From Candidatus Zixiibacteriota bacterium (lineage in GTDB: Bacteria; RBG-13-66-14; B26-G2; WVWN01): a stretch of 35,294 nucleotides of DNA. Numbering within the stretch: position 1 is the first letter of the stretch; the number at the start of each line of letters is the position of its first letter. The stretch lies in the NCBI GenBank assembly GCA_030613505.1, contig JAUWLW010000031.1, positions 1-35,294 on the forward strand, written 5' to 3'. The position numbers were made by a program, and so were the translations under genes. This document shows, piece by piece, positions 5,469 to 9,996 of this stretch. The notes under the pieces were generated by a model that was not told where the DNA came from, did no database searches, and saw only the letters and a list, made by a program, of their open reading frames with translations.

Positions 5469-6359
5469 ATGGCCGGCCCGTCAACGGATAAAACGTCCAT
5501 CAACGACGAGGATACCAGTTATCTGGGTGATCCCTGGCGCGACGCCGGCGCGTTGACCGGCTTCGAACCCGCCATCGAACAAGGGCCGGGCCTTTTCTTG
5601 GCGGCGGTAGGCATCCTTATCGCGGGTGCCGCGGCCCTGTTCGTTCTATTTTGGTATTCTATCGCGCCGCGGCTCGAGGCGTTTTCGCCGTCACTACCAG
5701 TTGCGGTCTTATTGGCCGGCGGCGTCTTAGTTTCGTATATATTTTTAGAATATCTAGGGATAATCGCGACAACGTACACCGGGAGGGCGTTGCTCCTACC
5801 GCTCGGGCGCTCGAGCCGGGTGACCATAAAACTGGTTGCGCCGGCCCGTAGGTTAGCGAAGCTTTTAGGCTCGAGCGCCGACCGGATGGCGCATTCCGCG
5901 GTCCGGGTATCTAACGCCGTTACGCACGCTACGGCAAGAGGTTTTAAAAAGCCCGGCCCGGTTCTCGTTCTGCTGCCGCGTTGCCTACAGCGGCCTGAGT
6001 GCAGCCAACCGCTCGTCGAGGACGTGGACAGCTGCCGCCGTTGCGGCGAGTGTCCCGTCGCGGAAATCTTGTCCCTCCGCGAGGAATACGACGACGTCGT
6101 GATGGCGGTACTTACGGGCGGCAGCGTCGTTCCGTCGGTGGTGCGGCATTTCGACCCGCGCGCCGTAATTGGCGTCGCGTGCGAACGGGAGCTGATAACC
6201 GGTATCTACGTTGTGAGCAAACGGCCCGTGTTGGGCGTAGCCAACCAAAGGCCGGAGGGGCCGTGCCGCCGTACGGCTCTGGACGTGGCCGAGCTCCGCG
6301 CCGCCGTCGAAACTTTCGTGCCCGGCGTAACGGACGTTGAAAAGCTTGATCGGGAATAG
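5469..6359 (+). CDS. DUF116 family membrane protein with conserved cysteines
   Basis: The product has 296 residues. An N-terminal tail of about 40 residues is followed by two transmembrane helices (about 41-64 and 76-101) and a cytoplasmic DUF116 domain. The domain shows VLVLLPRCLQ (165-174), C178, CRRCGEC (189-195), a VVPSVVRHFDP block, C238 and C266 in RPEGPCRRT. The cysteine pattern is the DUF116 hallmark and could bind a metal or FeS cluster; the function is unknown. The neighbouring ferredoxin makes a redox role thinkable. The ATG at 5469 has no visible ribosome binding site and follows a hairpin directly. No other ATG exists in frame before the helices, so translation may be weak, coupled or leaderless. 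Confidence 0.82.
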   Translation: MAGPSTDKTSINDEDTSYLGDPWRDAGALTGFEPAIEQGPGLFLAAVGILIAGAAALFVLFWYSIAPRLEAFSPSLPVAVLLAGGVLVSYIFLEYLGIIATTYTGRALLLPLGRSSRVTIKLVAPARRLAKLLGSSADRMAHSAVRVSNAVTHATARGFKKPGPVLVLLPRCLQRPECSQPLVEDVDSCRRCGECPVAEILSLREEYDDVVMAVLTGGSVVPSVVRHFDPRAVIGVACERELITGIYVVSKRPVLGVANQRPEGPCRRTALDVAELRAAVETFVPGVTDVEKLDRE

Positions 6360-6521
6360 ATGCGGAGAACGGGGCCTCGTCGCGGGTCGGTATTCCCGCT
6401 CCTCGGCTAACGTAAATGGCCCTGCGTCGGCGAGATTAACGGGCTACGTTTCGTTGTTTGAACCGATTAACGTTAACGCTAACGATCACGTACTGCTACA
6501 TTGCTTCCCGGGAGAAATCAT

Positions 6522-8738
6522 ATGCGTTCGAGGTTTACGTTGGGTATTATCGCGGCGGCCGCCGGTTCCGCTATCGCGTTATTTAACCCGGCAACGGATA
6601 CGGTGGACGACCCACGGTTTTTCGTACCGCACCTCTACGACGGCGCGAAGGGTACGAGCGACGTCACGCCGGTCCCGCACGACTACGACGTCCGCGAGTA
6701 CGTAATAGACGTGAAGCTCCACGACGTCGAAAAGAAAATTTCGGGGAATTGCAAAATAACCGCCTCGAGCTCGAAGAACGACCTCCGCAAGGTTCAGTTT
6801 AATTTTGCAAACGACATGAACGTCTCGGCCGTAAAACAGGACGGCAAGAACTGCACCTTCAAACACGCTAACGACGTGCTGGAGATAACGCTCCTAACGC
6901 CGAAACAGAAAGGCGAAAAGTTCGCGGTAACCGCGTTCTATAGCGGCAAACCCCAGGACGGCCTTTACTTTACCAGTAAGGGTGCCTACGTCTGCTCGGC
7001 CATGGAGGAGGCGCAGCATTGGTTCCCCTGTTACGACTTGCCGAACGATAAAGCCGACCGCGTGGAGTTGAAAGTCACGTGTCGCGACGACTGGTACGTC
7101 GCGGCCAACGGCGTTCTAAAGGGCGAGAAGAGCAACCCCGGCGGGACTAAGACGTTTACGTGGGTTACGACGAACCGCATCGCAACGTACCTCGTCAGCA
7201 TTTCCGGCGCGTACAAATATTCCCGCTTCGGCACTAGCTGGGGAGGCATCCCGATACGGTATTACGTCTTCCCGGAACACCGCGCCAGCGCCGAGATATG
7301 CTTCGAGTACACGCCGCGGATGATGAACTTCTTCTCCAACAGGTTCTGGCGGTATCCGTTCGACGACGAGAAGTACGGCATCGCCGAGGCCGAGATGGGG
7401 TACTTCGGCGGGATGGAAAACCAAACCTGCATAACGCTGAACTCGCCGTACGTGCGGCCCGACCATAGTTCGGACCATATCCTGGCCCACGAGCTGAGCC
7501 ACATGTGGTGGGGCGATTGCATATCGCCCGGTACCTGGAAGGACCTGTGGTTGAACGAAGGTTTCGCCACTTATTGCGACGCGTTATGGGAGGAGCACGA
7601 TAAGGGTAAACAGGCTTTCCGTGCCCGGATGCAACTTTTCGCAAACACCTACTTCGCCGAGGACGCGCGGCATCGGTTTCCCGTCTACGCCCCGGAGTCG
7701 CCGTGGAGCGCGACCGTATATCAAAAGGGCGCGTGGGTTATGCACATGCTGCGCCACGTCCTGGGAGAAGAGAAGTTCTTCCGCGCCTGGAATAAGTACG
7801 GCCGCGCCCACGAGTACAGCCACGCTTTCACGTACGAGCTCCAGCGCGCAATGGAAGCCGAATACGGCAAGAGCCTCCAGGAATTTTTCGACGATTGGGT
7901 CTATAGAGCCGGTTACCCGGTATACGAGTACGACTGGACGACCGCCGGCAACTCGGTGACGGTTAATATCTGTCAGGTCCAGAAGCAGAGCCGCCTTACG
8001 CCGCTGTTCGACATGCCTATCGACCTCACCATAACGACGCGGGGCGACGGCACCCACGTCGAGACCGTCTTCGTCAAGGACCGTCATCACCGCTTCAAGT
8101 TCGCGTACGGCAGCCCGGTGACGAACGTCGAGTTCGATAAATACGGCTGGGTATTGTGCAAGAAGAGCAACGTCGTCGACGTCCCGGTAGCGTCGTTCGA
8201 AGCGCAGCCGGCCCGCGGCGCCGTCAAACTAACGTGGAAGACAAACCCGGGTGCGCGCGCCGCGGGGTTTAATGTTTACCGGGCGCCGACGGCCGGCGGC
8301 GACGAAGGCCGCACCAAGCTGAACGCCGAGCTCATAACCGGCCGCTCACCCTACGCGTATCTGGACCGCGACGTCGAAGCCGAGGAGAGGTACCGTTATT
8401 GGCTCGAGGCCGCGAAGTTGAGCGGGGGCAGTGAGACCTTCGGGCCGGTGGAATGCGAGGCCGGTAAACGTGCCTCGACGTTCGCTCTTGAGCAGAACTA
8501 TCCCAACCCCGCTCGGGACGTAACGACGGTAAGGTTCTCGCTGCCGGTGCCGGCCGAAACTACGCTTAGCGTTTACGACCTGGCCGGTAGAAAGGTGCGG
8601 ACGAGTCGCATAACCGCTTGTTCCGAAGGGGAGAATGAAACGGCGGTCGACGTATCGAGCCTCGCGCCGGGGGTTTATACGTACCGCCTCGAGGCGGGCG
8701 GCGCGGTGGCGGCGCGGAAGATGGTCGTAGTAAAATAA
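6522..8738 (+). CDS. Secreted M1-family zinc aminopeptidase with C-terminal sorting tail
   Basis: The product has 738 residues. The start is the ATG at 6522, preceded by GGGAG at normal distance; an upstream in-frame TTG at 6501 is less likely. A signal peptide (about 1-22) precedes an N-terminal beta domain and the catalytic domain: GGMEN (296-300, exopeptidase motif), zinc site H323-E-x-x-H327 plus E346, and Tyr400 in VYQKGAW as the likely transition-state tyrosine. After the catalytic part comes a beta-sandwich Fn3-like module (about 560-650: VKLTWKT, GFNVYRA) and a FlgD-like/T9SS type-A tail (about 655-738: NYPNPA, VYDLAGRKV, LAPGVYTYRLE, ARKMVVVK). It should cleave N-terminal residues from peptides outside the cell or at the cell surface. 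It is followed by a terminator, so it is probably monocistronic. Confidence 0.92.
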   Translation: MRSRFTLGIIAAAAGSAIALFNPATDTVDDPRFFVPHLYDGAKGTSDVTPVPHDYDVREYVIDVKLHDVEKKISGNCKITASSSKNDLRKVQFNFANDMNVSAVKQDGKNCTFKHANDVLEITLLTPKQKGEKFAVTAFYSGKPQDGLYFTSKGAYVCSAMEEAQHWFPCYDLPNDKADRVELKVTCRDDWYVAANGVLKGEKSNPGGTKTFTWVTTNRIATYLVSISGAYKYSRFGTSWGGIPIRYYVFPEHRASAEICFEYTPRMMNFFSNRFWRYPFDDEKYGIAEAEMGYFGGMENQTCITLNSPYVRPDHSSDHILAHELSHMWWGDCISPGTWKDLWLNEGFATYCDALWEEHDKGKQAFRARMQLFANTYFAEDARHRFPVYAPESPWSATVYQKGAWVMHMLRHVLGEEKFFRAWNKYGRAHEYSHAFTYELQRAMEAEYGKSLQEFFDDWVYRAGYPVYEYDWTTAGNSVTVNICQVQKQSRLTPLFDMPIDLTITTRGDGTHVETVFVKDRHHRFKFAYGSPVTNVEFDKYGWVLCKKSNVVDVPVASFEAQPARGAVKLTWKTNPGARAAGFNVYRAPTAGGDEGRTKLNAELITGRSPYAYLDRDVEAEERYRYWLEAAKLSGGSETFGPVECEAGKRASTFALEQNYPNPARDVTTVRFSLPVPAETTLSVYDLAGRKVRTSRITACSEGENETAVDVSSLAPGVYTYRLEAGGAVAARKMVVVK

Positions 8739-8820: not shown

Positions 8821-9996
8821 ATGGGTTTAATCTACCTCGACCACGCGGCGACGACGCGGCCCGACCCGCGCGTCGTAGAGGTTATGCAGCCCTATTTCAG
8901 GGAGTACTTCGGTAACCCCCTCTCGACGCATCCCTTCGGCGAGAAGCCGCGGGAGGCGCTCGAGCGAGCCCGCGGACAACTCGCCTCGCTGCTCGGTTGC
9001 GAGAGCCGCGAGCTTATATTCACGTCGTCGGGAAGCGAGGCGAATAACCTCGCCGTCAAGGGGGTCGCGCTCGCGCGCGAGAATAAGGGCAAGCACGTCG
9101 TCATCTCCGCGCTCGAGCACCGGTCGGTGACGAACGCGGCGCAGAGCCTGGCCAAGCGCGGTTGGGAGGTGACGACGGTACCGGTCGACTGCTACGGCAT
9201 CGTCGACCCCGACGACCTTAGAGCGGCGTTGCGCGCCGACACGACGCTCGTATGCATCAACCTCGCCAACCTCGAGATAGGGACTATAGAGCCCATAGCC
9301 GAATTAGTGAAGGTAGTAAAGGAGAACTCGAGCGCGGCGTTCCACGCCGACGCGGTACAGGCGGTTGGGCATATACCGGTAGACGTCGGCGAACTGGGCG
9401 TCGATTTGCTATCGGTATCAGGTCACCGCTTCTACGGCCCCAAGGGCTCGGGCGCGCTGTACTTCAAGAAGGGCGTGAGGGTTCAGCCGCTGATCGACGG
9501 CGGCATTCAGGAAGGGGGCCGCCGCGCGGGAACCGAGGATGTCCCCGCCGTCGTCGGCCTGGGCGAGGCGGCTCGCATCGCCGAGGAAGAAATGGAGCAG
9601 CGCTCGGCCCACGTACGGGCTCTTCGCGACCGGCTGCACGACGGCTTGTTCGAACGCATACCCCACCTACACCTAAACGGCCATCCCGAACGGCGCCTGC
9701 CGATGCACGAGTCCGTGTGCGTGGAATACGTAGAGGGCGAGGCGATGATACTCTTCCTCGTTCGGGAGGGAGTTTGCGCGTCGAGCGGTTCGACTTGCTC
9801 GTCGCGGGCACTCAAGGCGTCGCACGTTCTTTTGGCTTGTGGCCTCGACCCGGCGGTAGCGCAAGGTTCTCTCCAGTTCACGCTGGGGTGGGAAAACAAC
9901 TCTGAAGAAATTGAAAAAGTCCTCAACGTACTGCCGGAGGTGGCGAAACGTCTTCGCGCAATGTCGCCCATTTACCCGGGCGATGACAAAGCTTAA
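8821..9996 (+). CDS. Cysteine desulfurase (IscS/NifS) homologue lacking the PLP lysine; probable pseudoenzyme
   Basis: The product has 391 residues and aligns end to end with group I cysteine desulfurases: YLDHAATT at the N-terminus, GSEANNLAVKG, the PLP-stacking His100 (ALEHRSV), Asp177 and Gln180 (HADAVQAVG), His202, the GGRRAGTED loop and the mobile loop with Cys326 (SSGSTCSS). Three key residues differ. The Schiff-base lysine (SGHK in E. coli IscS, K206) is Arg203 here. The Asn of NNEIG (N155 in IscS) is Leu151. The arginine expected in the SxRF strand that holds the substrate carboxylate is Gln352. The frame is intact and otherwise conserved, so the fold is maintained. Normal PLP chemistry seems impossible; a sulfur-relay, scaffold or regulatory role is a guess. 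No IscU, SufU or thiolation gene is nearby. Confidence 0.85.
   Translation: MGLIYLDHAATTRPDPRVVEVMQPYFREYFGNPLSTHPFGEKPREALERARGQLASLLGCESRELIFTSSGSEANNLAVKGVALARENKGKHVVISALEHRSVTNAAQSLAKRGWEVTTVPVDCYGIVDPDDLRAALRADTTLVCINLANLEIGTIEPIAELVKVVKENSSAAFHADAVQAVGHIPVDVGELGVDLLSVSGHRFYGPKGSGALYFKKGVRVQPLIDGGIQEGGRRAGTEDVPAVVGLGEAARIAEEEMEQRSAHVRALRDRLHDGLFERIPHLHLNGHPERRLPMHESVCVEYVEGEAMILFLVREGVCASSGSTCSSRALKASHVLLACGLDPAVAQGSLQFTLGWENNSEEIEKVLNVLPEVAKRLRAMSPIYPGDDKA

Follow-up and report, generated by a model that had tools for sequence, protein, structure and literature searches.

Lysine-less proteins of the IscS type, namely IscS2 of Archaeoglobus fulgidus and, by sequence, IscS1 of Methanosarcina acetivorans, have been known already, and hence the loss of the lysine alone is not new. 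In A. fulgidus IscS2 (PDB 4eb5, 4eb7, 4hvk), which has been crystallised with IscU, Asp199 stands in place of the lysine and Leu in place of the substrate arginine, with the cysteine kept; the protein is described as having no desulfurase activity, its cysteine serving as a ligand to the cluster of IscU without supplying sulfur (PMC7585200). PDB entry 4r5f represents the D199K mutant of the same protein. M. acetivorans IscS1, likewise archaeal and uncharacterised, reportedly lacks the catalytic lysine and was suggested to function in the manner of A. fulgidus IscS (PMC7585200). Meanwhile in E. coli the K206A variant of IscS shows no desulfurase activity, yet retains some PLP, and R354K is active (PMC9978102). 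E. coli IscS binds both IscU and TusA at differing sites (PMC11302665, PMC2854127) and a heterocomplex of the three is possible, though TusA competes with IscU and at a high level lowers cluster formation (PMC11302665). The matter bears on how anaerobes provide their Fe-S clusters with sulfur without, or beside, the desulfuration of cysteine; in M. jannaschii, for instance, SMS is reported to use sulfide (PMC12192291).

The window, i.e. the whole stretch of 35,294 nucleotides analysed here, contains a gene for a NifS-like protein, P0001, in which both the lysine and the arginine are replaced and the cysteine is kept, as in A. fulgidus IscS2. Its features are as follows.

5469-6359: DUF116 protein, two genes upstream of the pseudo-NifS gene
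6501-8738: peptidase of the M1 type bearing a C-terminal T9SS sorting domain; immediately precedes the pseudo-NifS gene
8821-9996, + strand: NifS-like protein lacking Lys and Arg (P0001, 391 aa), from translation, PF00266, TIGR03402, clade and dN/dS
9118-9120, + strand: codon of His100 (E. coli His104), kept; invariant in the family and in intact rows
9271-9273, + strand: codon of Leu151 (which we take to be Asn155 in E. coli IscS); CTC or CTG in four species
9349-9351, + strand: codon of Asp177 (E. coli Asp180), kept, from translation and alignment
9358-9360, + strand: codon of Gln180 (E. coli Gln183), kept in P0001; Ala in 23 of 40 Lys-less rows
9427-9429, + strand: codon of Arg203, replacing the PLP lysine (E. 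coli Lys206); CGC in four species, Lys in 46 of 46 intact rows
9796-9798, + strand: codon of Cys326, the sulfur-carrying cysteine (E. coli Cys328), kept in 44 of 44 family rows
9814-9816, + strand: codon of Lys332, family-specific, six residues past the cysteine; Lys in 40 of 40 Lys-less rows
9874-9876, + strand: codon of Gln352, replacing Arg (E. coli Arg354); Arg in 46 of 46 intact rows and in none of 44 family rows

The E. coli IscS numbering of Lys206, Arg354, His104, Asp180, Gln183 and Cys328 is that of PMC9978102. The reading frame is unbroken, and its product matches PF00266 (aminotransferase class V) with 254 bits; the nearest NCBIfam entry is NifS TIGR03402, with 487.8 bits against an equivalog cut-off of 530.75. 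Both the length and the whole fold are IscS-like (VIA-align Z 45-46 to IscS and human NFS1), and the fold was confirmed by an AlphaFold model with pLDDT 80.5 and pTM 0.81, in which the geometry of the cysteine loop is unusable because pLDDT falls below 50 at residues 325-335 (as it does at 225-229 and 231-236). P0001 was aligned to the top solved desulfurase structures and to 46 dereplicated intact relatives, the latter having K (46/46), R (46/46) and N (45/46) at columns 203, 352 and 151, respectively. Translation and alignment thus bear out the residue assignments of the sequence-only reading, according to which Arg203, Leu151 and Gln352 are replacements and Cys326, His100, Asp177 and Gln180 are kept. 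Leu151 lies within CINLANLEIGTIEP, Arg203 within DLLSVSGHRFYGPKG, the mobile-loop, persulfide-forming Cys326 within CASSGSTCSSRALKASHVL and Gln352 within AQGSLQFTLG. The CGC codon at position 203 is three base changes away from either AAA or AAG. The PLP pocket itself largely remains (H100, D177, Q180, S200, H202), and the His, Asp and Gln of this pocket, together with the cysteine loop, are shared with E. coli IscS and human NFS1, from which P0001 differs in lacking the PLP lysine and the substrate arginine, and in having Lys332 past the cysteine. The replacement of Asn by Leu151 stands as first read; the PLP-contact role given to that position does not, since we take the Asn of column 151, like the Arg of column 352, to be a ligand of the substrate carboxylate rather than a PLP anchor. 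With both of them replaced, substrate handling would presumably be lost as well.

Leu151, Arg203 and Gln352 are common to four species of the genus of the window (the window genome, G000, and G001-G003, whose versions of P0001 are 79-89% identical to it), and each of the four uses CGC at codon 203. G004, a member of another family of the same order (62% identity), has R203 and Q352 with Gln at position 151. The recurrence of all three residues across the genus, and of R203 and Q352 in G004, indicates that the loss is due neither to a sequencing error nor to chance decay. Sequencing error was rejected on the grounds of identical residues in four assemblies and of dN/dS (Nei-Gojobori), which lies at 0.08-0.14 in the six pairwise comparisons among G000-G003; the intact paralogue gives 0.17-0.25 in these comparisons. 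Between G004 and the genus synonymous sites are near saturation. The window genome harbours three further homologues: one on contig C3 (47% identity) with Lys, Asn and Arg, and two distant ones carrying Lys. The second, intact desulfurase which had been proposed as a check is therefore present, and at least one intact copy was also found in each of the nine other family-carrying genomes examined.

Relatives were collected by a profile search based on eleven Lys-less proteins. Five of 14 genomes of the window's own phylum were positive, all belonging to one order. Elsewhere, Lys-less proteins were detected in 11 out of 301 genomes sampled from the phylum of G062 (with a Chloroflexota record among the loci; E 1e-165) and in 4 of 4 genomes of the phylum of G055. 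In the phylum of G024, 27 of 30 genomes matched, and all of the 25 that were read for residues proved to be Lys-less. In the phylum of G065 (a Nitrospirota record), 88 of 245 genomes matched the profile; the first 25 read for residues comprised 20 Lys-less proteins and 5 with Lys but without Arg, and seven further ones comprised 6 Lys-less proteins and one keeping Lys. G065 itself has Lys and no Arg. Given the strict thresholds, these phylum counts are lower bounds, and the genomes drawn are samples.

Matches scoring less than 500 to P0001, as well as those without a residue at 203 or 352, were excluded before rows were counted. Removal of 57 near-copies at 85% identity then reduced the 148 rows to 91, from which an IQ-TREE phylogeny was built with columns 151, 180, 202, 203 and 352 omitted. 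A single branch with 100/100 support unites 44 bacterial rows, P0001 among them: 40 lack both Lys and Arg and four lack Arg but keep Lys, so that arginine is absent from all 44. The alignment of homologues called for by the sequence-only reading thus shows R203, L151 and Q352 to be shared by the genus within a wider, fully supported clade; its notion of three independent losses in this gene does not hold, for the arginine is missing throughout the clade and the lysine in most of it. Since the four rows that keep Lys group together (88/86) within the unresolved base of the clade, the order of events suggested is the loss of Arg before that of Lys. At three loci (L195-L197) a CO dehydrogenase gene lies directly upstream of such a Lys-keeping, Arg-less NifS, followed by IscU, TusA and Fur; this NifS possibly represents an intermediate state. 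A. fulgidus IscS2, structurally close to P0001 (VIA-align Z 45.2-45.8, rmsd 1.9, 43% identity), is placed outside the 44-row clade at an unresolved fork, and its inclusion is not rejected by the AU test (p 0.296).

Residue 203 varies freely among the 40 Lys-less rows (Q 24, R 10, T 2, A 2, S 1, I 1). At the thresholds used, six columns split the Lys-less from the intact rows, i.e. 203 and 352, where the residue is lost, and 102, 261, 309 and 332. Column 332 is Lys in 40/40 Lys-less rows, in 3/4 of the Lys-keeping, Arg-less rows and in 2/46 intact rows, 34 of the 46 having Glu instead; A. fulgidus IscS2 has Gln. That this lysine has become newly invariant in the sulfur-delivery loop argues for a continued use of the loop.

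In the rows dereplicated at 85%, neighbouring same-strand genes were counted up to a distance of 1.5 kb. TusA adjoins 34/40 Lys-less and 3/4 Arg-less, Lys-keeping genes, as opposed to 0/46 intact close relatives (73/82, 6/10 and 0/55 loci before dereplication). DsrE2 shows a similar restriction (14/40, 0/4 and 0/46), whereas IscU (31/40, 4/4 and 20/46) and Rrf2 (16/40, 2/4 and 12/46) occur beside intact genes as well. For TusA and DsrE2 the search profiles derive from neighbours of the family genes; the TusA test was repeated with outside seeds. A relaxed search of the 55 intact loci, eight of which are shorter than 4 kb, returned neither TusA nor DsrE2 apart from one TusA match with E 0.0024. 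No TusA was found nearby in 6/40 Lys-less rows, three of them in the genus of the window. It must be borne in mind that the absence of TusA beside intact enzymes applies to close relatives only, because in G002-G004 a distant intact NifS-like gene, of a type outside the 46 intact rows, does adjoin TusA. There, the distant Lys- and Arg-keeping gene is immediately preceded on its 5' side by a member of the TusA family (G002:C1:1211758, G003:C26:42515 and G004:C1:785445; L225, L223 and L224); no such second TusA is listed for G000 or G001. In addition, since the link to TusA follows a single clade, it counts effectively as one evolutionary association and not as many independent ones.

Typical gene orders are Rrf2-TusA-NifS-IscU, NifS-IscU-DsrE2-TusA and DsrE2-NifS-IscU-TusA. 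The partners keep their key cysteines: the three ligand cysteines are present in 31/31 IscU proteins, the CP cysteine in 31/31 TusA proteins and the DsrE2 cysteine in 11/11. Genes adjoining the cassette include nadA at three loci and CO dehydrogenase with Fur at three; a radical SAM gene is close by at three loci and, more weakly, at a fourth. All of these encode Fe-S proteins or iron regulators. The quinolinate synthase gene (nadA) is found directly upstream of Lys-less NifS-IscU in three genomes (L188, L189, L190).

In the case of the window itself, a search for the cassette genes TusA, IscU, DsrE2 and Rrf2 revealed none, and neither TusA nor IscU adjoins the pseudo-NifS gene in G000-G003. 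All parts of the presumed relay are nevertheless present in the window genome, dispersed over contigs: a DsrE2-TusA pair, likewise paired in G001-G003, is located on C90, and Rrf2, IscU, ThiS-like and MIP18-like genes lie together on C43. In G004 the DsrE2-TusA pair directly follows the pseudo-NifS gene. The IscU tree gives the IscU of the window genome no supported placement with either NifS. As for the local neighbours, namely the DUF116 protein, the T9SS-sorted M1 peptidase and a further M23 peptidase, the inference of a function from them was abandoned, no link to sulfur or Fe-S being seen. Genes matching these neighbours in length recur at L055, L174 and L034, with a gene of DUF116-like length in the same order at L055 and L034.

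The reading we prefer, with a probability of roughly 0.5, is that P0001 is a maintained pseudo-desulfurase acting as an adaptor, which would move persulfide from TusA/DsrE2 through Cys326 to IscU. The protein would be unable to form the Lys-PLP aldimine or to clamp the carboxylate of cysteine, and because of these two losses it should not desulfurate cysteine. Persulfide sulfur of TusA/DsrE2 would then be taken onto Cys326 and handed to IscU, the direction of transfer being our assumption. Judging by homology, the surfaces at which IscU and TusA dock are retained and both partners may bind, and the scattered genes of the window genome would have to cooperate. With loop and fold kept, cysteine no longer usable as a substrate, and a carrier and a scaffold as gene company, an adaptor between the two appears to be the simplest solution. 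The two partners would be the same as those of E. coli IscS, which serves here as the model for docking (PMC2854127); unlike the protein proposed here, E. coli IscS makes persulfide from cysteine and TusA is its acceptor. That P0001 is a maintained pseudoenzyme, as surmised from the sequence at the outset, is well supported by the conserved clade, by purifying selection and by the presence of another, intact desulfurase in the genome. As regards the accompanying suggestion of a persulfide relay or desulfurase partner, the company of TusA, DsrE2 and IscU in relatives speaks in its favour, and the relay as such is a prediction from sequence. Against it stand the lack of any adjoining cassette gene in the genus of the window and the behaviour of E. 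coli TusA, which is an acceptor and at a high level lowers cluster formation.

The main rival, drawn by analogy, is a structural role of the A. fulgidus IscS2 type, in which P0001 would dock IscU and Cys326 would ligate a [2Fe-2S] cluster formed from sulfide, no relay being needed. The pattern of loss in A. fulgidus IscS2 is the same (Lys to Asp199, Arg to Leu, and also Gln to Ala), that protein is described as inactive and as the provider of a cysteine ligand (PMC7585200), IscU-dependent assembly can run on H2S in E. coli without IscS (PMC13015791), and IscU stands beside 31/40 Lys-less genes. However, such a role leaves unexplained the association of TusA, and often of DsrE2, with the clade, and A. 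fulgidus IscS2 itself is not recovered as a member of the clade, even if the AU test does not reject forcing it in. We regard this role as possible, yet rather unlikely. Since TusA normally accepts sulfur from IscS, the flow may also run the opposite way, with persulfide passing from the intact desulfurase or IscU through P0001 to TusA/DsrE2, which would then serve tRNA thiolation, Moco or thiamine. Apart from the acceptor role of E. coli TusA (PMC2854127), this agrees with the ThiM-like and ThiE-like genes after NifS-DsrE2-TusA in G004 (L054, 6724-8231) and, in the window genome, with the ThiS-like gene (L050, 600-800) located 3' of IscU. On the other hand, the commoner company consists of IscU, Rrf2 and Fe-S enzyme genes, and TusA could be loaded directly by the intact desulfurase, which makes the reverse flow distinctly improbable.

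Delivery of selenium by P0001 and TusA to SelD or other acceptors seems very unlikely. The TusA relative YedF has a selenium link, going by NCBIfam names, and SelD exceeds the cut-off in 33/43 family-carrying genomes against 2/14 control genomes, a rate that cannot be weighed because the controls were not matched by phylum. Nevertheless, SelD above the cut-off is absent from 10/43, including all four genomes of the phylum of G055, whose cassettes are intact; the 53 neighbourhoods contain no true SelD and only two weak matches; and the SelD-NifS fusion of G014 keeps both Lys and Arg. An enzyme which is still active, with R203 or another residue substituting for the lysine, is just as hard to accept: PLP may still bind, given that His100, Asp177, Gln180, Ser200 and His202 are kept and that E. 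coli K206A retains some of it (PMC9978102), but K206A is inactive according to the same source, position 203 is free to vary in the family, the substrate arginine is absent from 44/44 rows and Gln180 has given way to Ala in 23/40. Finally, the disappearance of three catalytic residues might be taken as a sign of a decaying pseudogene, the chance of which is practically negligible, as the frame is open, dN/dS is lower than that of the intact paralogue and contradicts decay, and the clade spans several phyla.

SelD matches in genomes with a Lys-less NifS mostly contain one in-frame TGA. The fusion in G014 (C74; L072, L233) is a 748-aa frame joining SelD to an intact NifS-like domain with Lys and Arg.

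In the literature searched, from which subscription journals were mostly absent, no description was found of a TusA-linked, Arg-less and Lys-less bacterial NifS clade with an invariant Lys332. More tentatively, and short of calling it probable, it may be proposed that several bacterial phyla carry out a cysteine-independent, ISC-type Fe-S assembly, in which a desulfurase that has lost Arg and then Lys would serve as a TusA/DsrE2-fed adaptor of IscU and clusters would be built with sulfur from a carrier pool. A clade of several phyla that has lost its chemistry and stands beside a sulfur carrier and a scaffold offers a directly testable system. The finding has a bearing on annotation, too. The TIGR03402 cut-off fails to separate Lys-less from intact proteins, because the Lys-less relative L009 passes it with 540.2 bits and the intact paralogue L002, with 516.6 bits, does not. 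Automatic annotation would hence misname L009 as "cysteine desulfurase NifS", and genome counts of desulfurases may include proteins that do not desulfurate.
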